A stretch of DNA of 64,000 nucleotides from contig JAUHYQ010000001.1 of the NCBI GenBank assembly GCA_030426355.1, positions 62,001-126,000 on the forward strand, in the 5' to 3' direction. This DNA comes from Gammaproteobacteria bacterium (GTDB lineage Bacteria > Pseudomonadota > Gammaproteobacteria > Steroidobacterales > GCA-2729495). Positions 45,946-49,132 of the stretch are shown one piece after another. The notes below the pieces were generated by a model. It had not been told where the DNA came from, searched no databases, and worked only from the letters and a program-made list of their open reading frames with translations. Numbering within the stretch: the stretch's first letter is position 1; the number at the start of each line of letters is the position of its first letter. The translations under genes were made by a program, and so were the position numbers.

Positions 45946-46377
45946 CTATCGAGTGCGCGGACATACCCCGTCGTCGCCGAAGAAAAAGGCGATCTCGGCT
46001 TTTGCCGTATCCGGCCCATCGGAACCGTGCACGACATTTTCTTCGATACTGGCTGCAAAATCGGCCCGAATCGTGCCGCCATCGGCTTCTGCAGGGTTAG
46101 TCGCGCCCATCAGCTTGCGGTTCAGATCAACCGCGCCCTCACCCTGCAACGCCTGCACCATAACCGGACCGGATGTCATGTAAGCGACAAGATCATTAAA
46201 GAAGGGGCGCGCCTTGTGAACAGCATAAAAACCTTCTGCCTGCTCTTTAGTCAGGTGCATCATCCGCGCCGCGACAATTTGCAGGCCCGCGCCCTCAAAT
46301 CGCTTGTAAATCTCACCGATCAGGTTCTTTTCGACTCCGTCGGGTTTAATGATCGAAAGAGTGGTTTCGATAGCCAT
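45946..46377 (-). CDS. ndk: Nucleoside diphosphate kinase
   Basis: Transfers the gamma-phosphate among NTPs through a phospho-histidine. The sequence has [19 protein letters not shown] and the active-site His in [15 protein letters not shown]. At 143 residues it is full length. A perfect 12-base palindrome, GAGACGCGTCTC (45932-45943), lies between it and rlmN. Confidence 0.96.
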
Positions 46378-46520: not shown

Positions 46521-46844
46521 TCAGATGTTGAAACTTTCTCCGCAACCGCATTCGCTCGATGCTTTCGGGTTGTCGAACTTGAACGCCTCATTCAGGCCCT
46601 GTTTGACGAAATCGACCCGGGTTCCGTCTATGTATTCAAGACTGGGCTTGTCCACGATGACGGACACTCCGCCGGTTTCAAACACGACATCGTTGGCTTC
46701 AACGGTGTCGGCGTAATCGATCACATAAGCGAATCCGGAACAGCCAGTCTGCTTAATACCCAGGCGCAAGCCCAGACCTCCGCCCCGCTGCTCCAGGTAG
46801 TTGCGTACACGGTCTGCCGCATTCTGGGTGAGTGTTATTGCCAT
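46521..46844 (-). CDS. iscA: A-type iron-sulfur carrier protein, IscA family
   Basis: A-type carrier that relays Fe-S clusters to apoproteins. The three conserved cysteines are present in [17 protein letters not shown] and [12 protein letters not shown]. At 107 residues it is typical. It lies 20 bases after the IscU-like gene, the normal order iscS-iscU-iscA, but hscB, hscA, fdx and iscX are missing between it and ndk. ErpA is an alternative reading; gene order favours IscA. Confidence 0.9.
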
Positions 46845-46864: not shown

Positions 46865-47248
46865 CTAGCTCAATGCACCCGTCGCCTGCCGTGCCTGGAA
46901 ATTGGCATAACAGGCGCTCAATGCATCTTTCAAAATCAGTATTTTACCTGTCTTTTCGACAGGTATTTCCAGTTCTTTCAGGCTTTCGAGCAGGGTGGGG
47001 TCAACCAGCTGCTCGGGCCTTGCGCCTTCCAGCTTTGCGGCGGTCAGGCTGCAGGCTGCAATTATATGTGGACAGGCGAAGGCTCGGAACCCCACATTAT
47101 GCAAACGACCGGCTTCGACATCGGCGGCAAAGTAGACTGCTGCGCCCTGCGCAGGTGAACCAGCCCGCCCCACCACCGCCGAACCCAGCGCAGTCGGCGC
47201 CCGATCAAAGCGTTCTGCGACCAACGCGTTATAGGCAGCCTCGTTCAC
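46865..47248 (-). CDS. Degenerate IscU-like scaffold-family protein
   Basis: A 127-residue protein in the position of iscU. It aligns with E. coli IscU (recalled sequence) without gaps through the key blocks. GAPACGDV becomes GSPAQGAA, replacing ligand Cys37 by Gln34 and Asp39 by Ala36. FKTYGCGSAI becomes [10 protein letters not shown], keeping one Cys (Cys59). LPPVKIHCSIL becomes [11 protein letters not shown], losing the HscA-binding LPPVK, His105 and Cys106 (now Lys102). Two other cysteines, 66 and 113, are not at ligand positions. It can hardly hold a canonical 2Fe-2S cluster. The frame is intact and overlaps iscS by four bases, so it is expressed and probably selected, perhaps as an IscS partner. 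Confidence 0.8.
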
Positions 47249-48411
47249 AATTCCTCCGGCGACAGCGCACGCAGGTGCGTAACAGCGCGGCGAAAGGACG
47301 TAATTGCCTGCTGAATATCGTCAGGCTGCGTAAACCTGCCGAGGCTGAAGCGTAACGATGCCTCCGCCAGAACGTCCGGCCGGCCCAATGCCCGCAGCAC
47401 GTAAGACGGTTCGCCAGTGGCCGAATTGCAGGCCGAACCACTGGTCACGGCAAGGTCGTCAACCGCGAAACGCAGACTCTCGCCCTCCACGCCCGCAACG
47501 CTGACAGTCAGGATGGAAGCGATGCGCTGCTCCGGATGTCCGTTAAGAAGAATGCCTGGTAAGTCATTGATACCTGACCAAAGATTGTCACGCAATGTCA
47601 GGATACGCTGCACCTCTTCCGCCATCTCCAGTTGCAGCAAGCGCGCTGTTTCACCCATACCGACGATCTGATGCACCGGCAGAGTTCCCGGGCGCATACC
47701 GCGCTGCTGTCCGCCACCAAACAGTATTGGTTCAACCCGCTTGACGGTCGCCGCGTTTAACACCAGAGCACCCACACCCTTGGGTCCGCAGGCTTTATGC
47801 GCATTCAGGGTCAGCAGGTCAACATATTGCGCCTGCATATCAAGCGGCAGCTTACCGGCGCTTTGCACCGCATCCACATGAAAGAGGATGCCGGCTGCCC
47901 GACACAAAGCACCAATCGCCGCAATATCCTGCACTACGCCTGTTTCATTGTTCGCGTGCATGATCGAAACCAGCACCGTGTCCGCTCGCAGCGCGGCAGA
48001 CACCGCCGCCGGCTCAATCAAACCCATTTCCGTCGGTTGCAGGTAGGTTACCTCGTACCCGTGTCGCTGCAGCTCTGCGCACGCCCCCAATACCGCCTTG
48101 TGCTCAGTGGCGGCAGTCACCACGTGACGCCCCTGCGCTTGCCGGTAACGCGCCCCGCCAATAACACCCAGGTTATCGGACTCGGTCGCGCCGGATGTCC
48201 AGACCACGTAGTCCGGATTCGCGTTAACCAGGGCCGCGACCTCGGCAGCCGCCTGCTCTATTGCCGCTGCCGCAGTCCGACCAAAAACATGGGTAACCGA
48301 CGCAGGATTGCCGAAACCGCTTTGATGCCCCATGACCTCGAGCATACGCTGCCGAACGCGCGGATCCATCGGCGTGGTCGCGGCATAATCCAGGTAGACC
48401 GGCTTAATCAT
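47245..48411 (-). CDS. iscS: Cysteine desulfurase, IscS family
   Basis: PLP enzyme that releases sulfur from cysteine for Fe-S clusters and tRNA thiolation. The N-terminus is VYLDYAATTPMDPRVRQRM; the PLP lysine is in LNAHKACGPKGVGAL, Asp in HVDAVQSAGKLP, and the persulfide Cys in VTSGSACNSATGEPSY, a long flexible loop as in group I enzymes. At 388 residues it is slightly shorter than E. coli IscS (404). The C-terminal IscU-contact tail lacks the usual ...EWAHH ending. It overlaps trmJ by eight bases, and no iscR is present. Confidence 0.93.
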   Translation of the reverse strand: MIKPVYLDYAATTPMDPRVRQRMLEVMGHQSGFGNPASVTHVFGRTAAAAIEQAAAEVAALVNANPDYVVWTSGATESDNLGVIGGARYRQAQGRHVVTAATEHKAVLGACAELQRHGYEVTYLQPTEMGLIEPAAVSAALRADTVLVSIMHANNETGVVQDIAAIGALCRAAGILFHVDAVQSAGKLPLDMQAQYVDLLTLNAHKACGPKGVGALVLNAATVKRVEPILFGGGQQRGMRPGTLPVHQIVGMGETARLLQLEMAEEVQRILTLRDNLWSGINDLPGILLNGHPEQRIASILTVSVAGVEGESLRFAVDDLAVTSGSACNSATGEPSYVLRALGRPDVLAEASLRFSLGRFTQPDDIQQAITSFRRAVTHLRALSPEEL

Positions 48412-49132
48412 TTTCAGGCTCGTCTATATGCCTTTCTGCCGCGGCCAGCACGCCGCGCAAAATGCCCAATTCATTGACGTCCGGCCGGGCGCGGTTAAAC
48501 AATCGCCGCAGCTTGCGCTCCAGTTGACGCGGATTATCCGGGTTCAAAAACCCGCTACTGACCATGAGCCTGAGCAAATGCTCATAAAATAACTCCATAT
48601 CCGCACCGGTGGCCGGTGGAAACTCAGGCGGTTGCGGCGACTGAAACTCCCCCATGGCAAAGCGCAGTTCATAGGCGACCAGCTGTACGGCCGATGCCAG
48701 ATTCAGGGAGCTGTATTCGGGGTTCGCGGGGATGTAGACCAATGCATTACAAAGATCCATCTGTTCGTTGGACAAGCCCGATCGCTCGGTACCAAACACA
48801 ATGGCGACAGGCCCTGTGCTGGCTATTTCAAGACACTGGGCGGCGCATTCACGTGGGTTGAGTTCTGGCCAGCGAAGCTTGCGGCGTCGGGCACTGCTGC
48901 CGTAAACGATACGGCAATCTGCGACGGCCTCCTGCAGAGTATCCACGACGCGCGCTTTGGCGAGCACGTCCACGGCTCCGGAAGCGCGGGCATCCGCCTC
49001 TGCGCTCGGAAAGTCTTGCGGATCAACCAGCACCAGATCGCTGAAACCCATGGTTTTGATAGCTCGCGCGGCGGCCCCTATGTTGCCGGGGTGACTGGTC
49101 TCACACAGCACGAAACGAATCGGAAAACTCAT
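48404..49132 (-). CDS. trmJ: tRNA (cytidine/uridine-2'-O-)-methyltransferase TrmJ
   Basis: SPOUT-knot methyltransferase for position 32 of tRNAs. Knot motifs are FVLCETSHPGNIGAAARAIK, GPVAIVFGTERSGLSNEQMD and YSSLNLASAVQLVAYELR. The C-terminal helical domain (MELFYEHLLRLMVSSGFL) completes 242 residues. Divergent from suhB as in E. coli, it directly precedes the iscS gene. Confidence 0.94.
   Translation of the reverse strand: MSFPIRFVLCETSHPGNIGAAARAIKTMGFSDLVLVDPQDFPSAEADARASGAVDVLAKARVVDTLQEAVADCRIVYGSSARRRKLRWPELNPRECAAQCLEIASTGPVAIVFGTERSGLSNEQMDLCNALVYIPANPEYSSLNLASAVQLVAYELRFAMGEFQSPQPPEFPPATGADMELFYEHLLRLMVSSGFLNPDNPRQLERKLRRLFNRARPDVNELGILRGVLAAAERHIDEPEND

Follow-up and report, generated by a model that had tools for sequence, protein, structure and literature searches.

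IscU is regarded as the scaffold that defines the ISC system, and proteins that carry the NifU_N domain are named 'scaffold' on sight. In the structure of the E. coli IscS-IscU complex, IscU contacts the cysteine desulfurase through Y3, Y11, G38, V40, K42, residues 59-64 and K103; the K103E change breaks the complex, K103 belonging also to the site recognised by HscA, and IscU does not bind IscS(delta 376-404), which demonstrates that the stretch 376-404 of the desulfurase is needed (PMC2854127). A disulfide between Cys328 of IscS and Cys63 of E. coli IscU has been observed, according to work cited in the same paper (PMC2854127). E. coli IscU has little effect on the activity of IscS, for which it competes with TusA (PMC11302665), so that a partner occupying IscS can direct sulfur even if it builds no cluster. 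A related protein outside the ISC system is SufU, whose role as a sulfur acceptor is known (PMC8593673). A further system of interest is the truncated ISC system of Mycobacterium tuberculosis, in which iscS is reported to stand alone beside a full SUF system (PMC10848736). In the literature searched, which leaves most subscription journals uncovered, no description was found of a ligand-poor IscU or of a reduced iscSUA operon.

The isc locus of the window

The window, that is, the whole stretch of 64,000 nucleotides that was analysed, holds an isc locus in which the gene between iscS and iscA, here named iscU*, encodes an IscU-fold protein that is poor in cluster ligands. The features of the locus are as follows.

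46865..47248, minus strand: iscU*, ligand-poor IscU-fold protein of 127 aa, GTG start at 47248, stop at 46865
47245..47248, minus strand: GTGA, the four bases in which the end of iscS and the beginning of iscU* coincide
47245..48411, minus strand: iscS, cysteine desulfurase with the equivalents of C328, K206 and H104 and without the canonical C-terminal tail
46521..46844, minus strand: iscA, A-type carrier, its three cysteines present
48404..49132, minus strand: trmJ, conserved upstream neighbour of the isc locus
45946..46377, minus strand: ndk, conserved downstream neighbour
47072..47074, minus strand: codon of Cys59, equivalent to Cys63 of E. coli IscU, the sole conserved ligand, which opens the CPH motif
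46952..46954, minus strand: codon of Lys99, equivalent to Lys103 of E. coli IscU, Lys or Arg in 80/81 relatives
47051..47053, minus strand: codon of C66 (IscU position 70)
46910..46912, minus strand: codon of C113 (IscU position 117)

The intact frame, the four-base overlap with iscS and the place between iscS and iscA, all of which had been reported in an earlier note on this DNA, were confirmed. None of hscB, hscA, fdx and iscX was found between iscA and ndk. The genome (2.8 Mb, 99.7% complete) contains a second NifU_N protein, a SufU adjoining SufS, and no others; canonical IscU was not found in it, which leaves iscU* as its sole isc-type IscU. The earlier note had taken the protein for a paralogue. 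Since the genome has no canonical IscU, this term does not fit, and iscU* is the isc-locus copy itself.

Fold and ligand positions of iscU*

The Pfam NifU_N profile matches iscU* with 29.6 bits (cut-off 22), and this match together with the IscU fold of its model places the protein in the NifU_N/IscU superfamily. The NCBIfam equivalog for IscU (TIGR01999) gives 27.7 bits, far below its cut-off of 192.4. The fold comes from an AlphaFold2 model built on four sequences (pLDDT 85.8, pTM 0.82). Its best match in the PDB is human ISCU2 bound to its desulfurase in a persulfide-transfer complex (8pk8_D; Z 14.4, 2.1 A, 106 residues); E. coli IscU from the IscS-IscU crystal (3lvl_A) reaches Z 12.5, and SufU structures Z 9.6 at most. 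Two other assignments within the superfamily were rejected: NifU, because iscU* consists of NifU_N alone over its 127 aa, with no further domains (Nfu), and SufU, because only one equivalent of its zinc-ligand positions (three Cys and one Asp) is Cys. Of the marks that accompany an IscU scaffold, the place in the isc locus between iscS and iscA is present. Missing are the operon genes hscA, hscB and fdx, an HscA in the genome, and the HscA-binding LPPVK motif, which here reads IPVEK.

Alignment with E. coli IscU (MG1655 record) and 22 other canonical IscU, in which the ligands read CDCHC in 23/23, places Q34, A36, C59, G101 and K102 of iscU* at the ligand positions 37, 39, 63, 105 and 106. The replacement of C37, D39, H105 and C106, with C63 alone left as C59, had been claimed from the letters of the window and is borne out by this alignment. 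The same claim relied on an alignment to E. coli IscU without gaps, which proved incorrect: iscU* is one residue shorter between positions 48 and 50, and its N-terminus is different as well. The HscA-binding motif had likewise been described as lost through the change from LPPVK to IPVEK; the motif is altered as described, but its loss is partial, with P100 and K103 retained. The protein has two further cysteines, C66 and C113, at positions 70 and 117, where every aligned canonical IscU has Ser and Ala, respectively. These two residues may form a second thiol pair.

Conservation of the ligand-poor form across the order

Within the window's order, 97 of 117 genomes contain a homologue of iscU*. 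The arrangement is the same in about 78 loci that were read at length, with suhB in one direction followed by trmJ, iscS, iscU*, iscA, ndk, rlmN and pilF in the other, and neither iscR nor hscB, hscA, fdx or iscX was found in any of them. Four-base overlaps between iscS and iscU* are frequent in the order. In one subgroup of the window's own family, f1 (L036-L038, L060-L063, L082 and L093), iscA was not found in the operon and iscS-iscU* remain.

The alignment of 81 relatives indicated that the substitutions are common to a clade, which is what the earlier note had proposed to check. Cys is never found at position 37, and at position 39 no more than one relative has Asp; position 105 is Gly in 69/81 and position 106 is Arg or Lys in 54/81. 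C63 is kept as Cys in 79/81, the two exceptions (G020 and G021) having Ser or Pro. Position 64, a Gly in canonical IscU, is Pro in all 81 relatives, and H65 (57/81), P100 (79/81), K103 (73/81, with Arg in 7) and D112 (78/81) are retained to varying extents. A new consensus (GCPH, KxG[RK], EDAL) is conserved in the order. Because both C59 and the substitutions recur across the order, more than chance is involved, and a sequencing error was rejected on the ground that the substitutions are shared by a clade. Relatives with full ligands were looked for in the isc locus of the order and none was found. In family f16, three genomes (G067, G088 and G078) keep H105-C106 without C37-D39 and a fourth (G054) has Asn-Cys; the loss of the ligands therefore did not happen in a single step. 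A canonical full-ligand IscU does occur on a 14 kb contig (C115, locus L115) of a metagenome-assembled genome of the same genus (G003), where it adjoins genes in tandem that carry repeats of 'KFSFTSDGNATDVGDL'-like motifs and resemble those of phage or surface-repeat proteins; this IscU is either contamination or phage-borne.

Estimates of dN/dS by the NG86 method between close pairs were mostly 0.08-0.39, with one pair at 0.64. The gene evolves faster than those of IscS and IscA, its dN/dS lying above both and far from 1. Values far below 1 for nearly all pairs argue against decay, in agreement with the earlier note, and a pseudogene was rejected on the combined evidence of frame, conservation and dN/dS.

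The absence of hscA and hscB, which the earlier note had recorded for the window, extends well beyond it: neither gene was present in the isc loci read, and HscA scored above its cut-off in 0/114 genomes of the order, where the best matches had DnaK-like scores and the E. coli control was positive. Frataxin was found in 0/60 genomes of the order and TusE/DsrC in 1/60. SufB scored above cut-off in 57/60 and MnmA was present in 54/60.

A tailless IscS, its probable contacts and its fusions

H104, K206 and C328 are present in every aligned IscS, as counted in the alignment. The canonical C-terminal tail, SPLW[ED]M..G[IV]D....[EQ]W..H, was found in 0/82 IscS of the order, in contrast to 21/21 canonical IscS of other families. 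Since the E. coli tail is needed for IscU to bind and the IscS of the order lacks it, the old docking mode must have changed. A tailless IscS from outside the order (L185, genome G152) has a close relative of known structure, 7mhv (648 bits, full-length match), in which the chain likewise stops at SPL.

The positions of iscU* that correspond to the IscS contacts of E. coli IscU show higher conservation than its other positions, with a mean of 3.12 bits versus 1.53 bits elsewhere; 0/20,000 random sets of positions were as high and the true register beat every slid one. The residues found there have in part diverged from the canonical ones, and the canonical letter is kept at 5/11 contacts versus 16/69 positions elsewhere, a difference that is not significant (Fisher p 0.12). 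The retention of K103 in cells without HscA is what would be predicted for a residue that now serves IscS alone.

Fusions of iscS and iscU* into a single ORF occur repeatedly in the order, namely in G019 and G028 (family f1, genus g9), in G049, G100, G106 and G111 (f11) and in seven genomes of f13, and outside the order in G434 and G335. The same fusion in several genomes of one genus makes an assembly error unlikely. In the fused proteins, the linker and the iscU* domain take the place of the IscS tail. The fused domain of f13, which lacks even C63, falls below Pfam detection, yet hhalign relates it to the family with a probability of 97% (E 2e-11). These fusions may be read as a natural statement that IscS and iscU* act together. 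In one of the genomes outside the order (G335, locus L124), the fused IscS-IscU* is accompanied by HscA and a canonical IscU; the fusion and a full ISC system are therefore compatible in one genome.

Ligand-poor IscU in other gammaproteobacterial families

A profile search of 370 genomes of the class, with a closer look at 34 of them, demonstrated that ligand-poor IscU genes adjoin iscS in many further gammaproteobacterial families. The degree of loss varies: HC at positions 105-106 is kept without C37 in G284, G414, G133 and G120, C63 is kept without the other ligands in G142, G151 and G177, and no cysteine or histidine ligand is left in G152, G246, G278, G301 and others. Cys63 is absent in f13, in f15 and in most other lineages. 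None of the ligand-poor genomes checked reaches an HscA-level score except G335, which also has the canonical IscU; by contrast, across the class HscA is above its cut-off in 157 genomes and canonical IscU in 162. In G292 (locus L179), a genome without HscA, the IscU lacks C37 only (SDCHC), possibly an early stage of ligand loss.

In both a tree of IscS and a tree of the short IscU, a single well-supported branch has the ligand-poor rows all to one side. Both trees are quick and unrooted and contain many fast-evolving rows, and therefore a single origin of the ligand-poor form is not proved. The short IscU tree requires a minimum of 8 changes at C63 and of 7 at the HC pair.

Proposed role of iscU* and alternative explanations

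Compared with IscU itself (E. coli IscU, human ISCU2), iscU* shares the fold, the slot between iscS and iscA, Cys63, Lys103, Asp112 and the positions that face IscS; it differs in the absence of Cys37, Asp39, His105 and Cys106 and in the altered HscA motif, and its order differs in the absence of HscA and frataxin, in the tailless IscS and in the possibility of fusion to IscS. SufU also has the IscU fold and partners a cysteine desulfurase, from which it accepts persulfide, but it works with SufS and needs the zinc ligands that iscU* has lost. TusA and SufE/CsdE, each a desulfurase partner with one conserved cysteine, are work-alikes only; their folds differ from that of iscU* and there is no sequence relation. 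The same is true of ISD11 and frataxin, non-catalytic partners of NFS1/IscS that tune the desulfurase and whose folds are unrelated. As in M. tuberculosis, SUF builds the clusters and a reduced isc locus remains; there, the scaffold gene is reportedly gone, whereas in the window's order it has been kept and remodelled.

Taken together, conservation, synteny and fusion suggest that iscU* is a cluster-free partner subunit of IscS, which in the lineage of the window probably takes persulfide on C59; we hold this reading with reasonable confidence. Its role may be that of a sulfur acceptor, an activator or a sink, the three named in the earlier note. The suggestion in the earlier note that a scaffold family had been re-purposed without a cluster and is kept under selection gains support from the clade-wide loss of ligands, the dN/dS values and the absence of HscA. 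In the model we propose, iscU* would be the IscU of the ancestral isc operon, retained after cluster building moved to SUF, in a lineage whose isc locus would have shed HscA/HscB, ferredoxin, IscX and IscR and whose genome would have lost frataxin. The protein would no longer build a [2Fe-2S] cluster in the known way, and would keep the IscU fold and stay with IscS as its partner subunit, as operon coupling and fusions indirectly suggest. In a cell with MnmA and without TusE and CyaY, Cys59, its one strictly conserved thiol, would probably take persulfide from the mobile Cys328 loop of IscS and then pass it on, or would hold IscS in a given state. The recorded disulfide between C328 and C63 makes C59 a plausible persulfide acceptor. 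Where C63 is gone, the role would be purely structural. The Ser or Pro of G020 and G021 and the absence of Cys63 in f13, f15 and most other lineages speak against a sulfur relay as the general role; as Cys63 is gone in a minority of lineages, what all of them share is most likely that the protein docks on IscS and tunes it.

It is conceivable, if somewhat doubtful, that iscU* is throughout a purely structural or allosteric subunit of IscS, through whose Cys59 no sulfur passes, the cysteine being kept for packing or redox sensing, much as ISD11 and frataxin serve NFS1. This is a narrower form of the explanation given above. The f13 genomes that keep the domain fused to IscS without Cys63, the repeated changes of this residue on the short IscU tree and the absence of frataxin all point in this direction; on the other hand, Cys63 is the most conserved position of the protein in the window's order, a degree of conservation that packing would hardly demand.

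An unusual cluster is an unlikely alternative. Here, a [2Fe-2S] cluster would bridge two molecules through Cys59, or would be held by Cys59 together with the cysteines at positions 70 and 117, or would have outer ligands from IscS or glutathione. Cys59 is strictly kept, an iscA with its cysteines comes next in the operon, and C70 and C117 occur together above expectation (in 29/81 relatives; Fisher p 0.0003, not corrected for kinship). Individually, however, C117 is found in only 52/81 relatives and C70 in only 33/81, the partners for loading and release are absent (Fdx and HscB from the locus, HscA, CyaY), and SUF is present.

That iscU* is a decaying isc remnant, whose frame survives through its translational coupling with the neighbours iscS and iscA, is very improbable and already largely refuted: its evolution is faster than that of IscS and IscA and it is very divergent in the reduced genomes of f14 and in f13, but homologues persist in most genomes of the order, a new consensus is conserved, the domain is kept in IscS fusions and the fold is confident. 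Equally hard to sustain is the idea of a zinc-dependent persulfide acceptor of the SufU type that has switched to IscS, for which the common superfamily and the known acceptor role of SufU (PMC8593673) could be cited, since the zinc ligands are the very positions that were lost, the structure is nearer to IscU than to SufU (Z 14.4 versus 9.6) and the genome has its own SufU beside SufS.

Returning to the cluster-free partner subunit, a broader proposal can be made tentatively, with slightly more doubt than belief. These proteins may constitute a widespread separate family of cluster-free IscU-fold proteins, obligate partners of a tailless IscS in SUF-dependent Gammaproteobacteria, which would have arisen on the loss of the chaperone system and been fused repeatedly to IscS, and whose thiol, in most of the window's order, would relay persulfide and replace the lost control by Tus and CyaY.

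Concluding remarks

A whole order and many further gammaproteobacterial families keep an IscU that cannot be a scaffold in the known way. Here nature would have separated the docking role of IscU on IscS from its cluster role. Pipelines that take IscU as proof of a working ISC pathway would err for these genomes. Variants with none, one, two or three of the ligands, together with the IscS-IscU fusions, provide ready-made separation-of-function material for structural work. The finding also raises the question of what controls IscS in cells that lack HscA, frataxin and Tus.
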